Of a DNA stretch of 43,519 nt, positions 265 to 28,160 are shown piece by piece. This DNA is from a bacterium BMS3Abin01. Its GTDB lineage: Bacteria > Actinomycetota > Thermoleophilia > BMS3ABIN01. Position 1 is the stretch's first letter; each line of letters opens with the position of its first letter. Below the pieces are notes generated by a model, which was not told the origin of the DNA, did no database searches, and was given only the letters and a program-made list of their open reading frames with translations. The translations under genes were made by a program, and so were the position numbers. The stretch is from contig BDUA01000050.1 of assembly GCA_002897715.1 (NCBI GenBank), positions 1 to 43,519 on the forward strand, in the 5' to 3' direction.

Positions 265-774
265 TTAGCGGCGCCGTCGTGTTATTAATACACCCGCGCC
301 CATGGCCAGCAGACCCGCCGCCGGCAGCAGGAACACGCCGGTGCTGGGCATGGCGGTGCGGGCCTGGGTGTAGGCGTCGGGCTGGACTCCTTCGCCGCCC
401 GTCGCCGCAGTCACCGTGAAGGTCCGAGTGCACGTGACGATCTCCTCTGTTTCAGAGGTTCCAAAGAAAACAACGCCGTGGGCCCCCTCAGACGCCCCGG
501 CGGGGATGGTGATGTCAGCGCTGAAATCGCCGCTCGCGGCAGATGTCCCGGATGCCAGAAGATCACCAGAGATTGATTCCCAGTAAAGTTCGAAGGGAAA
601 GCTGCCCATCGCGCCGGTGCCGCCTACGGCAACCTGCGTCCCCGCGGGACCCTGGTCAGGAGTCATGGTGAAGGCGACGGTGTCGCAATCTGCATTCAGC
701 GCGGCGGCGGGAGCCGCCGACGCCATCACAACCAATAGTGTCAAAACCGATACAACCAACCATTTCGTCTTCAT
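265..774 (-). CDS. Secreted surface protein with C-terminal MPSTG sorting signal
   Basis: This is a 169-residue exported protein. It has a signal peptide (residues 1-25, ending APAAA), a probable Ig/IPT-like beta domain (about 33-122, opening MTPDQGPAGTQVAVGGTG) and a cell-wall sorting signal: MPSTG at 142-146, a hydrophobic stretch, then RRRR at the C-terminus. MPSTG is an LPxTG variant, so a sortase would be expected to cleave between T and G and anchor it to the wall. I chose the ATG at 774 because AAGGAG sits six bases upstream; an in-frame ATG at 780 overlaps that site. A truncated copy of the same anchor lies just upstream (816-1100). The ectodomain's function is unknown. Confidence 0.8.
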   Translation of the reverse strand: MKTKWLVVSVLTLLVVMASAAPAAALNADCDTVAFTMTPDQGPAGTQVAVGGTGAMGSFPFELYWESISGDLLASGTSAASGDFSADITIPAGASEGAHGVVFFGTSETEEIVTCTRTFTVTAATGGEGVQPDAYTQARTAMPSTGVFLLPAAGLLAMGAGVLITRRRR

Positions 775-815
775 AGCCATCTCCTTCTTCCGATAGATAT
801 ATTCCGTTATGTGCA

Positions 816-1100
816 TCAACCACGCCGGCGATGAACCAGTATGCCCGCACCCAGGACCGTCAGCCCCGCCGCCGGCAGCAGGAAGATGCCGGTGCTGGGC
901 ATGGAAGTGCGAGCTTCTGTTGCCGTATACGCATCCTGCTGCACGGTCTGTTCAGTAGTCTGCTGCGTTATCTCCCGCGTTATCTGTTCGCATACAGATG
1001 ATGCTCCTTCCCCAGGCATTTTTTCAAGCGCCCGCCGATTCAAACGGGGTTGAATGTTACCAATCAGATTATAATTCGTCAATAGTTGAGCCGGCGCCAC
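816..1100 (-). pseudogene. Truncated MPSTG surface protein (anchor-only remnant)
   Basis: This frame encodes a second C-terminal sorting signal: SMPSTGIFLLPAAGL, a hydrophobic stretch and HRRRG. It is nearly identical in DNA to the anchor of the neighbouring gene (compare 316-333 with 867-884). There is no signal peptide and no ectodomain. The longest frame (94 residues) opens with a GTG at 1100, only three bases after the folD stop and with no ribosome-binding site; a later in-frame ATG also lacks an export signal. A protein without export cannot reach a sortase, so I read it as the remnant of a tandem duplication. A short cytoplasmic product cannot be excluded. Confidence 0.5.
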
Positions 1101-22717: not shown

Positions 22718-25366
22718 ATGAAAGACAGATTCAAATCCAGGAAGAGCCTGATCGAAGAGCTGTCGCTGGCACGCCGGCGCCTGGCCGAGCTGAAGGCCGG
22801 CGGTGCGTCGGCGAACGGCGGCGTCGCCGGGAGCGTCCCCGGAGGCCACTGTTTTACCGAAACCCTCATCAACACCCTTCCCGGCATATTCTACCTCCTG
22901 GACGAACAGCTGCGCATGGTGCTCTGGAACCGTAACCTGGAGAAGGTTTCCGGCTATACCCACGAAGAGATCGCCTCCATGAGCCCCCTGGATCTCATCG
23001 CCGAGGACGACCGCGGACTCATGGCCGGCATGCTGCGGGAGGTGGCCCGGACCGGAAGCGTAACCGCCGAAGCCCGCAGCCTTACCAGGGACGGCGTGGA
23101 GATACCCTACTTTTTCACCGGCACCCGCCTGGAAGATGAAGGCAAGGTTTACTTCGCGGGCACCGGCATCGACATCTCGGAGCATAAAGACAAGGACGAC
23201 TCCCTGAGATACGCCCTGGAAGAGTCCCAGCTCCACCGCCTGGAGACCTCGGCTTTGCTGGCTGCGGCACGTTCGGTGATCGAATATCAGGACTTTGAAA
23301 AGGCAGCGCGCACCATTTTCGATATCTGCAAGGACCTTACCGGGGCCACCAGCGGCTATGTAGCCCTGATAAACAGGGACAGCGACGAGAACGATGTGGT
23401 CTTCCTGGATTCCGGGGGTCTCCCGTGCACGGTGGACGATTCCCTTCCCATGCCCGTCCGTGGCCTCCGCGGCAAGGCGGTAGAGTCGGGGCGGACCGTT
23501 TACGACAATGACTTCTCCGAAAGCGGGTGGAAGGAGTTCATGCCGGAGGGGCATGTCAGGCTGGACAATGTACTGTTCGCCCCCCTGATGGTGAAGGGAG
23601 AGGCCGTGGGACTGCTGGGACTGGCCAACAAACCCGGTGGATTCACCGAAGAAGATACCCGGCTGGCGACGGCTTTCGGCGAACTGGTGGCCGTAGCCCT
23701 GGTCAACGACTGGACCTTTGAATCGCTGGAGAAGAGCGAGGAGAGATACCGCTCACTGGCGCAATCAGCCAACGACGCCATAATATCCGCCGACAGCGAC
23801 AGCAGGATCATCTACTGGAACCAGGGCGCCGAGCGTATATTCGCCTATACCGATGCGGAGGCGCTGGGCAAACCGCTTTCCATGCTCATGCCGGAACAGT
23901 TCCGGCAGCGTCATGACGGCGGCATGGAGCGTTTCCTCAGGACCAGGGAACCGCACATGATAGGCCGCACCGTGGAGATGGAGGGGCTGAGAAAAGACGG
24001 CTCCGTTTTTCCCATGGAGCTGTCGCTGTCCACCTGGACCACCAAGGACGGGGATTTCTTCACCGGCATCATCCGTGACATAACCGCGAGGAAGCGCGCG
24101 GTGAAGAGCGAGGTGGACGCCCGCGCCCAGGTGCAGAGCTATGCCACCCGCCTGTCCATCCTGCACAAGATCGGTCTCTCCCTCAATCGGGAGACCGACA
24201 AACGGCGCCTGCTGCGGTCCGTACTCAAGGCCGCCGCGGAGATCACCTCCGCCGGTATCGGCGTGATGACCCTCATCAAGGAGGGACAGACCGAGATCAT
24301 CTCCATCTATTACGCGCCCTGGTACGAACAGAGGTGCGAGATAGGCGAGGAGATACCGGCCCTGCACATGCGAATCGCCGCGCTGATGGAGAAAGATGAC
24401 GATGCCGCCATTATCCACAATACAGCCAGCCTGGAGCAGCTGCCTGAAGGACATCTGAAGCTGAAAGACCTGCTCATCGGCACCATCAAGGATACCAAGG
24501 GACGGATTATGGGCCATTTTATGCTTAGCGACAAGGCCGACGGCGCCGACTTCACCAGTGAAGACCAGGAGATCATCGCCCTGCTGGCGGCACAGAGTTC
24601 GGTGGCCCTGGTGAGTGCGGAGAATTTCGAGCGTGAGCATATTGTCGCGGAGTCGCTGCAGGACGCACTTCTGCCGGACGCGATTATCCGTGACGACCTG
24701 GAGATCGGGCTGCTGTATCAGTCATCAGGACCGCTGGGCAAGATAGGGGGCGACTTTTATGATTTCATCGAACTGGACCAGAACCGTCTTGCCGTCCTGG
24801 TCGGCGATGTGTGCGGCAAGGGCCTGGCCGCCGCCACCTATACCGCCATGATCAAATATATGCTTCGCGCCTACCTGGGTGAGGGTATGGAGCCGGAAGA
24901 GTGCCTGACCAAGCTCAATGCCGCCGTACACCGCCAGGTTCCTATCGAGAAGTTCGTGACCCTGGGCCTCTCCATCATCGATACCAGCGCCGGGACCGTC
25001 ACCCATTCCTCCGCCGGCCATCCACCGCCGCTGGTCTGCCGCCAGAATAAGGCCAGTTTCATCCATATCGAACAGGCGGTCCCCCTGGGTGTCCTCAAGG
25101 AACACCGGTACGACTCCAACCGGTATTCCATCGCCGGCGCCTGCTCGTTTTCATTGTATACCGACGGACTTCTGGACGCGCGATCGGAAGGCGCGGAACC
25201 ATTCGGCGAGAAACGCCTGCTGGAAACCTTTTCCGGCTGCTGTTGCCAGCGTCCGCAGCAGGTTGCAAAGGAGGTCATCCAGGCTGTCCTGGACTATTCC
25301 GGTGACAGACTTAGGGATGACATCGCCCTGGTGGTCATAGGCTTCCCGGACAAGACCCCCGATTAA
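22718..25366 (+). CDS. PAS-GAF-PAS-GAF-PP2C (SpoIIE-type) phosphatase
   Basis: An 882-residue cytoplasmic regulator. Domains in order: PAS (about 45-155), GAF (175-335), PAS (340-460, PAC end IIRDITARKRA), GAF (475-640), and a SpoIIE/RsbU-type PP2C serine phosphatase (650-880). Metal-binding motifs are intact: GGDFYD near 677-682, GDVCGKG at 696-702, SAGHPPPL near 765-772, YTDGLLDA near 814-821 and DDIALVVI near 867-874. Such proteins dephosphorylate anti-sigma-antagonist proteins and steer partner-switching sigma factors. No RsbV/RsbW partner is in the window. It is convergent with the sortase-like gene. Ribosome-binding site weak. Confidence 0.88.
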   Translation: MKDRFKSRKSLIEELSLARRRLAELKAGGASANGGVAGSVPGGHCFTETLINTLPGIFYLLDEQLRMVLWNRNLEKVSGYTHEEIASMSPLDLIAEDDRGLMAGMLREVARTGSVTAEARSLTRDGVEIPYFFTGTRLEDEGKVYFAGTGIDISEHKDKDDSLRYALEESQLHRLETSALLAAARSVIEYQDFEKAARTIFDICKDLTGATSGYVALINRDSDENDVVFLDSGGLPCTVDDSLPMPVRGLRGKAVESGRTVYDNDFSESGWKEFMPEGHVRLDNVLFAPLMVKGEAVGLLGLANKPGGFTEEDTRLATAFGELVAVALVNDWTFESLEKSEERYRSLAQSANDAIISADSDSRIIYWNQGAERIFAYTDAEALGKPLSMLMPEQFRQRHDGGMERFLRTREPHMIGRTVEMEGLRKDGSVFPMELSLSTWTTKDGDFFTGIIRDITARKRAVKSEVDARAQVQSYATRLSILHKIGLSLNRETDKRRLLRSVLKAAAEITSAGIGVMTLIKEGQTEIISIYYAPWYEQRCEIGEEIPALHMRIAALMEKDDDAAIIHNTASLEQLPEGHLKLKDLLIGTIKDTKGRIMGHFMLSDKADGADFTSEDQEIIALLAAQSSVALVSAENFEREHIVAESLQDALLPDAIIRDDLEIGLLYQSSGPLGKIGGDFYDFIELDQNRLAVLVGDVCGKGLAAATYTAMIKYMLRAYLGEGMEPEECLTKLNAAVHRQVPIEKFVTLGLSIIDTSAGTVTHSSAGHPPPLVCRQNKASFIHIEQAVPLGVLKEHRYDSNRYSIAGACSFSLYTDGLLDARSEGAEPFGEKRLLETFSGCCCQRPQQVAKEVIQAVLDYSGDRLRDDIALVVIGFPDKTPD

Positions 25367-25455: not shown

Positions 25456-26214
25456 TCAGTACGTCGTACCCGCCGGCTGCACATCTTCCAGTTCACCGCG
25501 GATGATGATTCGCCGCTTGACGTCCCAGAGCGGATCGCAGGTGAGCAGCGTGATGGCCTCGTAACCCACCGGTTCAAGTACCGATGTGTCATCAGGCGTG
25601 ACAATGAAAGACTCTGTAACCCGGTAGGTGAATGTTGCATAAGGCGTCTTCACTGTGACAGTGTCGCCTACGGCGACATCGTCCAGGTGCAGGAAGGGTG
25701 CGCCGTAGAGCACGCGATCGCCGGCTACGGCGAAATTGCCGCCGGCGCCCGGCAGGGTCGTCTCCCGTATATGACCGGGGCCCTTCTTCAGCGCTTCACC
25801 ATCAGCACCCTCGACGATCATCCAGCGGGAGCCGATGCTGGGAATGTCGATCTCGCCCACCGGGTCCAGCTTATGGAGCCTCGCGTCCAGCGCTTCCGCT
25901 TCGCGCCGCAGGTAGTCCGGGTCCACCGAACCGTTACCGGTGATGGAGAACAGGGAGCGCATCGCCTGCTGACCGTTCCTGTTCTGCAGGTAGCCGTAGC
26001 CGATGCTGCCGGCCACGTACAGCACCACACCCAGGCTTACCACCATGAACAGGGTGGCTATCCACTTGATCACCCGCGCCGGATGGATGGAGTTACGCGC
26101 CGCAGAGGCGCGTCTGCCGGTGGAGGCCCTCTTTTCCGCCGCCGCCAATGAACGCAAGGGCCTGTTGGTCCTGAACCCGCCGGCACGATACCTGGTGTAG
26201 CATTTACTGGCCAT
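25456..26214 (-). CDS. Sortase-fold protein with catalytic His replaced by Asp
   Basis: A 252-residue membrane protein with a basic N-terminus, one helix (about 50-70) and a class D/E-like sortase domain. Typical landmarks are IDIPSIG, GPGHIRETTLPGAGGNFAVAG, YGAPF, LLTCDPLWDVKRRIIIRGEL. The active-site Cys (TLLTC in the family, LLTC here) and the late Arg are present. The residue after AVAG, the catalytic His in the usual AGHR motif, is Asp (AGDR; codon GAT at about 25718-25720). Sortases need His-Cys-Arg, so this copy is probably inactive or altered, or the base is an error. AGGAGG lies upstream. It follows the sigma/anti-sigma gene on the same strand. Confidence 0.82.
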   Translation of the reverse strand: MASKCYTRYRAGGFRTNRPLRSLAAAEKRASTGRRASAARNSIHPARVIKWIATLFMVVSLGVVLYVAGSIGYGYLQNRNGQQAMRSLFSITGNGSVDPDYLRREAEALDARLHKLDPVGEIDIPSIGSRWMIVEGADGEALKKGPGHIRETTLPGAGGNFAVAGDRVLYGAPFLHLDDVAVGDTVTVKTPYATFTYRVTESFIVTPDDTSVLEPVGYEAITLLTCDPLWDVKRRIIIRGELEDVQPAGTTY

Positions 26215-26266: not shown

Positions 26267-27751
26267 TTACGGCTGAGGGGGACTCGCCACGGAGAACGAG
26301 AGCACTGTAAGGTTGCCGCCGTTCTGGCTGACGGACAGGCCCTGCGCGTCCATGGCGTTGATGAAAACCGGGAAGGTCCCGTAGCCGGCGGCTCTGGCAG
26401 TACCGCTCCAGGTCTCCAGGCCGGAGCTGCTGTACTGGTACACCAGGGGCATATCCAGCAGGCCCTGGATGTTCGCTGTCACCGATGCAGCGCTGCCCTG
26501 GACCACCGCGGTGACAGTGAACTGGCTGTCCTCCCAGACCGGGTTGGGACTGATGCTCACCCTGGCGATGGTTATGAGCGCTTGCTGCCGGCCTGCCGGA
26601 GGCTGATCGGTAGATTGTGGCGACGTTGGTATATTTTCCGGTTCCTTTACCGGTATCACCGCCGGCTCATCCGCCTGCGGCCGGGGCTCCTGCGTTAATC
26701 CCCCGCCTTCCGACGGCAGGTCGGGCGTTGCCATAGGCTGCTCTCCGACAGCAGACTCGTCGTTGAATGCCAGGTTATCCCTGCCGGTTTCGCCGGCAAT
26801 CAGGAAGGCGCCGATGGCGAATACCGCCACCGCCGCAGCCGTACCTAAAATGATCCTGCTGTGGAATATCCTTGAAAACAGGGACCTTCCGTCAACCGCA
26901 ACATCCGGGGAGGCAGCGACAGGCCGGACCGCAGCCGAAGCGCCGCCGCTCTGTGCAACCAGGTTCCTGAGATTCCCGGCAAAGGCCTCGGCCAGATCCG
27001 GCGGCGGTACTACCGGGATGAGCATTCGGAAGGAGCGTGACGCGTCACCCATCTCCTCCAGGGCCGCGGCGCAGAAGGTGCAATCCTCCAGGTGGGCATC
27101 AACTGCAGCACTGTCCTCACCGGACAGCTCATCATCGATATAGGGTGATAACATGTCGATGATCGTTTCGCAATCGGGGGGTACCTGTTCTGTCCTGACC
27201 TGTGCCATCCTGAGCTCCTCTCTTAACCTGAACCGGGCCCGGGAGAGCAGAGCCCCCACCGCGTTGCGGTTGGAACCCAGGACTTCAGACATCTGATCGT
27301 AGTTGAAGTCCTGCAACTCCCTCAGTATCAGCGCCGCCCGCTGGTTCTCATTGAGCCTGCCGGCGGCCCGTCGCACCCTGCCCATCTGCTCCTGCAGCAA
27401 CAGCGCCCGCTGCGGGTCCGCGTAGATGTTCGGGTCCTCCGGCGCCAGCAGCTCCAGGTCCGCATCCGCGTACCTGGAACGGCGTCGCATCTCGTCGTAG
27501 GCCAGGTTCCTGGCGGTCCGGTAGAGGTAGGCGGAGAAGTTCTGCACGTCCTTTCTCTCCCCCAGAACGGTATACATCTTCAGAAACGCGTTCTGGACGA
27601 CGTCGGACGCATCCTCGGCGTTGTTAACCAGCCGGTAGACGAAGTTGTATACCGGGTTCTGGTAGCGCTCAAACAGCCGGCGGTATGCTTCCGCGTCACC
27701 CCGGCCGGCGAGAGCCGCCAATTGGTTATCTGACAGATCCGCGCCTGACAT
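26267..27751 (-). CDS. ECF sigma factor fused to zinc-finger anti-sigma, membrane helix and Ig-like ectodomain
   Basis: A 494-residue single reading frame. Region 2 of an ECF sigma factor (about 17-90, DVVQNAFLKMY), region 4 (about 128-182, LNENQRAALILRELQDFNYDQMSEVLG), a zf-HC2 anti-sigma finger (C194, H220, C224, C227), a membrane helix (about 300-320), a proline-rich linker, and an extracytoplasmic beta domain (about 392-494). Normally sigma and anti-sigma are separate; here the sigma is tethered to the membrane by its own inhibitor. Release would need proteolysis or a conformational signal. AGGAGG five bases before the ATG supports the start. Next to the small sorted peptide gene and the sortase-like gene. 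Confidence 0.9.
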   Translation of the reverse strand: MSGADLSDNQLAALAGRGDAEAYRRLFERYQNPVYNFVYRLVNNAEDASDVVQNAFLKMYTVLGERKDVQNFSAYLYRTARNLAYDEMRRRSRYADADLELLAPEDPNIYADPQRALLLQEQMGRVRRAAGRLNENQRAALILRELQDFNYDQMSEVLGSNRNAVGALLSRARFRLREELRMAQVRTEQVPPDCETIIDMLSPYIDDELSGEDSAAVDAHLEDCTFCAAALEEMGDASRSFRMLIPVVPPPDLAEAFAGNLRNLVAQSGGASAAVRPVAASPDVAVDGRSLFSRIFHSRIILGTAAAVAVFAIGAFLIAGETGRDNLAFNDESAVGEQPMATPDLPSEGGGLTQEPRPQADEPAVIPVKEPENIPTSPQSTDQPPAGRQQALITIARVSISPNPVWEDSQFTVTAVVQGSAASVTANIQGLLDMPLVYQYSSSGLETWSGTARAAGYGTFPVFINAMDAQGLSVSQNGGNLTVLSFSVASPPQP

Positions 27752-27932: not shown

Positions 27933-28160
27933 TTAAGCTTTGGACTTCCTGGTGAGAAAATAACCGGCGCCAACCAACGCGGCTCCGGCCAGAGCAAACA
28001 ACGCCAACTCAGCGCCGGTTCCTGGAGTACCAGTACCGCTGCTGACTCCGGCGGTCGCTCCATAGCTTTGTGCCTGGGCCGGGATGTTAAGCGACAGCAC
28101 CAACATCGTGGCGATGACGATACCCATTACCAGCATTATCGCAATCCGCTTCCTGTTCAT
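27933..28160 (-). CDS. Tiny exported peptide with TPGTG sorting-like signal
   Basis: A 75-residue protein made almost only of export and anchor signals. Signal peptide about 1-30 (ending PAQA), a short segment QSYGATAGVSSGTG, then TPGTG at 45-49, a hydrophobic helix and RKSKA. If both signal peptidase and a sortase act, only about 18 residues remain. GGGAGG upstream of the ATG and a strong terminator downstream show a genuine single-gene unit. It could be a wall-linked peptide, a signalling peptide, or simply a small two-helix membrane protein. It lies directly before the membrane-tethered sigma factor. Confidence 0.75.
   Translation of the reverse strand: MNRKRIAIMLVMGIVIATMLVLSLNIPAQAQSYGATAGVSSGTGTPGTGAELALFALAGAALVGAGYFLTRKSKA

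Follow-up and report, generated by a model that had tools for sequence, protein, structure and literature searches.

In the class E sortase SrtE1 of Streptomyces coelicolor, the catalytic triad is formed by His251, Cys320, and Arg329, and Tyr229 is held to favor Ala in the LAXTG sorting signal (PMC5148588). The proton transfers of catalysis are assigned to the His in other sortases (PMC9520033), and in C. difficile SrtB the residue that follows the nucleophilic Cys (Cys+1) shields the catalytic His (PMC4371152). The role of the His is still debated (PMC13257024): S. aureus SrtA, as cited there, requires it, but some other sortases can do without it for cleavage. The H128A variant of Filifactor alocis SrtA still cleaves (PMC13257024), and so does a His-to-Ala mutant of C. 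difficile SrtB as cited in the same paper. Because such Ala mutants lacking the His still cleave, catalysis without the His is chemically plausible. Here, we describe a sortase gene with Asp at the position of the catalytic His in a bacterial genome sequence of 43,519 nucleotides (bacterium BMS3Abin01, contig BDUA01000050.1; "the window" refers to this whole stretch).

The window sortase and its catalytic residues

The protein has a basic cytoplasmic N terminus, one membrane segment (approximately residues 49–76, as read from the sequence), and, at residues 122–242 by PF04203, the sortase domain. It belongs to the PF04203 (MEROPS C60) sortase domain family (E 2.3e-30). The best NCBIfam model is the class E sortase (NF033747), with a score of 119.1 bits that does not reach the cut-off of 160, and the closest solved relatives by sequence are the Streptomyces avermitilis sortase E entries 5go6 and 5go5. 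Alignment with S. avermitilis sortase E is gapless through GNFAVAG[H/D]R..YG.PF, where the query reads GNFAVAGDR and the Streptomyces protein GNFAVAGHR; therefore, Asp166 is placed at the catalytic-His column. The original prediction of Asp, encoded by GAT, in place of the catalytic His is confirmed by this alignment and by the relatives described below, except that the codon had been located at 25718–25720, one base from its real position. The prediction that the Cys and Arg are still present was also correct: the catalytic Cys is kept within TLxTC (Cys226), as is the catalytic Arg (Arg235). By profile, Cys, and Arg the window protein is a member of the sortase superfamily; it lacks the catalytic His and the class E Tyr and falls short of the class E cut-off. 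A structure model built from a two-sequence alignment was of low confidence (pLDDT 58.8) and is too poor for Asp-Cys distances, but the best 50 Foldseek matches were all sortases (best E 1.6e-6).

Table 1. Positions of the sortase gene, its active-site codons, the neighboring sigma factor gene, and candidate substrates in the window
Feature	Position	Strand	Details
Asp-type sortase gene	25456..26214	(-)	252 aa; PF04203 E 2.3e-30, 105 bits, cut-off 26.6
Asp166 codon GAT	25717..25719	(-)	catalytic-His position; alignment to class E sortases and relatives
Cys226 codon TGC	25537..25539	(-)	nucleophile position
Asp227 codon, Cys+1	25534..25536	(-)	Asp in 31/31 of the bacterial family; His in 63/72 outside
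Arg235 codon CGA	25510..25512	(-)	catalytic-Arg position
ECF sigma factor fused to zf-HC2, hydrophobic segment, and C-terminal predicted outside domain	26267..27751	(-)	PF04542, PF08281, PF13490
Candidate substrate, 75-aa secreted mini-protein with TPGTG, hydrophobic stretch, and RKSKA end	27933..28160	(-)	TIGR01167 19.3 bits
Candidate substrate, 184-aa protein with MPSTG sorting signal end	265..819	(-)	TIGR01167 20.2 bits
Candidate substrate, 94-aa protein with MPSTG sorting signal end	816..1100	(-)	TIGR01167 16.2 bits

Distribution and origin of the Asp form

All PF04203 sortases were taken from 19 genomes of the bacterial family to which the window belongs, giving 31 proteins from seven genera that fall into three paralog groups. 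Every one of the 31 has Asp at the catalytic-His column (29 GAC codons and two GAT), the Cys is kept in 30, and the Arg is kept in all; none of the 19 genomes has a sortase of any other type. In contrast, the same column is His in 72/72 sortases from other families of the same class and phylum, a comparison set that was kept within one phylum and in which four rows are duplicate retrievals of the same gene.

In a tree calculated by a quick method without the Asp/His column, with SH-aLRT support, one branch (SH-aLRT 97) separates all 31 Asp sortases from the others, consistent with one change, and the six-member group that contains the window sortase is supported at 99. Because a single branch parts all Asp from all His sortases, these data indicate that the His-to-Asp change arose once, before the split of the three paralog groups and seven genera, and has been kept since. 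A motif survey of 397 genomes of the phylum used a DNA pattern for [AG]DRVLY..P, and among sortases the pattern was matched only in the window's bacterial family; Asp in other motif contexts was looked for within the 72 aligned sortases. Three further loci outside the family matched the pattern, but none is a sortase by profile, and two read as one glycosyltransferase-like protein. No Asp-sortase copies were found among viral contigs. No report of a natural Asp at the catalytic-His position of a sortase was found in the open-licence literature, although absence there is no proof.

Several other positions are diagnostic of the family: Val168-Leu169 replaces Thr-Thr (VL follows the Asp in at least 30 of the 31), position 175 is Leu, Asp227 replaces His at Cys+1 (Table 1), and Trp230 replaces Tyr/Phe. 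In the sister enzymes, both His residues near the nucleophile, the catalytic His and that at Cys+1, correspond to Asp166 and Asp227. Asp166 and Asp227 are probably close together in space because the Cys+1 residue shields the catalytic His in C. difficile SrtB. Following the conserved GH of the beta3/beta4 loop, all 31 family sortases have Ile/Leu/Met and 52 of the 72 outside have Tyr; the family therefore lacks the class E Tyr (Tyr229 of SrtE1), a loss consistent with a sorting motif that contains Pro instead of Ala (PMC5148588). All 31 family members have His148, which is equally kept in the His-type sortases (66/72), where the class E Tyr stands directly after it.

Selection was estimated by the NG86 method for pairs of sortases more than 85% identical. 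For most close family pairs dN/dS was approximately 0.03–0.1, with one pair near 0.3, and strong purifying selection acts on most of the close Asp-sortase pairs. A pair of shorter sortases (L078/L089) departs from the others: dN nearly equals dS (0.094 and 0.120), and dS is low. One family member, L093:7937-8608 (G009:C16), keeps the Asp but has Thr in place of the Cys and has lost the RVLY motif, and its genome also carries two intact Asp sortases. This copy is likely to be a pseudo-sortase, a decayed member apart from the other 30.

Gene neighborhoods and candidate substrates

The sigma factor gene (Table 1) lies directly upstream of the window sortase with 52 bases between, and the same gene order is found in L068, L075, and L076. 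Its ECF sigma domains, anti-sigma-type zf-HC2 domain, and hydrophobic segment, the last read from the sequence, bear out the membrane-tethered sigma factor that had been predicted next door. On the other side, a PAS/GAF/SpoIIE-type phosphatase gene (22718-25366, + strand) is convergent to the sortase gene, and their ends lie 89 bases apart. The paralog group of the window sortase is located behind this fused ECF sigma/zf-HC2 membrane protein and near TPxTG mini-proteins and PMT_2 glycosyltransferases. The second group adjoins CpsB/CapC phosphatase, sugar transferase, and Wzy/Wzz-like genes, and the third overlaps or abuts an O-antigen-ligase-like gene (PF04932). Exopolysaccharide-linked loci are L074:6775-14756, L078:7864-9914, L086, and L091. 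Linkage of two paralog groups to polysaccharide genes raises the question of the acceptor, and the exopolysaccharide-linked Asp sortases possibly use one other than peptidoglycan. In the window's assembly, the same weak match occurs at G000:C5:3290-3361 and G000:C35:3290-3361, which suggests a duplicated contig.

Sorting signals were called under strict criteria that required P-x-T-G, a hydrophobic stretch, and a basic tail at the C terminus, and shuffled tails served as the control. We relied on this combination because TIGR01167 alone is non-specific, exceeding its cut-off (15.9) in nine of 14 control genomes. Together, the window and the sortase loci have 2150 open reading frames, among which 10 strict signals were found compared with 0.01 expected from shuffled tails; three are in the window (Table 1), and all 10 are within the window or loci of the window sortase's paralog group. 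In L067, L068, L071, and L075, a gene for an LPNTG or LPKTG protein directly follows the orthologous Asp sortase; the sorting-signal protein of L068 passes the Pfam Gram_pos_anchor cut-off. The signals found were all of the Pro type (LPNTG, LPSTG, MPSTG, and TPGTG), and the LAXTG signal of class E was not among them in a non-exhaustive search. Mini-proteins of 73–75 aa (window 27933-28160 (-), L075:12228-12449, and L082:1943-2167) are conserved and consist of little beyond a signal peptide and a TPxTG sorting signal.

Three nearly or fully complete genomes each contain one PF04203 sortase, of the Asp type, together with sorting-signal proteins: MPNTG and TPATG proteins in G004 (100% complete), LPSTG and LPNTG proteins in G008 (97%), and an LPNTG protein in G010 (97%). 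In G003 and G014, no sorting-signal protein was seen in the few loci examined. An exosortase (PF09721) was considered as the real processor of the tails and rejected, with two weak matches only and none of the 19 family genomes over the cut-off. If the sorting-signal proteins are anchored, the Asp sortase would be the only known candidate enzyme.

Possible roles of Asp166 and comparison with known sortases

Judged from sequence, the window gene probably belongs to an active lineage of membrane-anchored sortases that would recognize Pro-type sorting signals with an Asp-Cys-Arg active site, Asp166 doing the acid/base work. Activity itself, whichever part Asp166 plays, is very likely, and the invariance of Asp166 suggests that the residue has a role. 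In the proposed mechanism, Cys226 would attack the Thr-Gly bond of a Pro-containing signal (LPxTG, MPSTG, and TPGTG types) to give an acyl-enzyme, Arg235 would hold the substrate, as in other sortases, and an acceptor would resolve the acyl-enzyme. Asp166 would take over the proton transfers done by His in other sortases, and its pKa could be raised by Asp227, the nearby second new acid. Catalysis by the enzyme, Asp166 as its acid/base, and the part given to Asp227 are what we infer here. The loss of the Cys in L093 counts against an active enzyme to the extent that decay can occur in the family. In a more specific and rather unlikely version, the lineage would be defined by an acid pair, with the carboxyls of Asp166 and Asp227 sharing a proton and Asp166 acting as the acid/base; the acceptor may also differ from lipid II because two of the three paralog groups are in or beside exopolysaccharide genes.

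The sortase could instead be active with Asp166 in a structural or electrostatic role, catalysis being left to Cys and Arg alone with water, His148, or the substrate. The cleavage retained by His-to-Ala F. alocis SrtA, and by C. difficile SrtB as cited in PMC13257024, is consistent with this arrangement, and so is the invariance of His148 in the 31 family members. However, His148 is no new compensating residue, being conserved to the same degree in the His-type sortases (66/72), and a dispensable position should vary, whereas all 31 members have Asp there; we consider this explanation quite improbable.

The original prediction had left the choice between an inactive sortase and a changed mechanism, and the second half of that claim is the better supported. 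An inactive enzyme would bind sorting signals without cleavage and might work as a sensor linked to the membrane-tethered sigma factor, as could be suggested by the essential His of S. aureus SrtA (as cited in PMC13257024), the sigma factor gene directly upstream in the window, L068, L075, and L076, and the truly decayed L093. Retention of the Cys in 30/31 and the Arg in 31/31 argues against a dead enzyme, two of the three paralog groups have no adjacent sigma factor, and genomes whose single sortase is of the Asp type keep many sorting-signal proteins. With dN/dS of approximately 0.03–0.1 and sorting-signal genes adjacent to the sole sortase type as well, a binding-only protein is not favored and seems very unlikely. 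A sequencing or assembly error behind Asp166 is of negligible probability, since 31 loci from 19 genomes agree and use two synonymous codons, and the lone error that had been offered as an alternative is refuted by the Asp in all 31 family sortases.

An Asp-Cys-Arg sortase with acid/base work by Asp166, our preferred reading, would bear on the debate over the His: a lineage with Asp fixed in every paralog and with Cys, Arg, and substrates kept allows the matter to be tested directly. Provided that they are active, the Asp enzymes would be natural sortases that differ in pH profile and mechanism and are useful for sortase-mediated ligation, and the His would be no obligatory mark of a working sortase in genome annotation.

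Among known systems, S. coelicolor SrtE1 (5cuw), S. avermitilis SrtE (5go5/5go6), and T. fusca SrtE (9iok) are the best family, sequence, and fold matches. The window sortase shares with the class E enzymes the cytoplasmic N-terminal part, the single membrane segment, the Cys, and the Arg. Unlike SrtE1, the Asp sortases have Asp for His251 and Ile/Leu/Met for Tyr229, and unlike class E, they are associated with Pro-type signals rather than LAXTG; the window protein scores under the NCBIfam class E cut-off. His-type sortases of other families in the same class (e.g., L022 and L023) are sister material in the tree, with 43–46% identity over the domain, and carry GHRTTYGAPF and TCHP where the Asp sortases carry GDRVLYGAPF and TCDP. 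Cleavage without a catalytic His has a precedent in F. alocis SrtA H128A and the C. difficile SrtB mutant (PMC13257024); those are laboratory Ala mutants of His enzymes, whereas the family described here carries a natural, fixed Asp.
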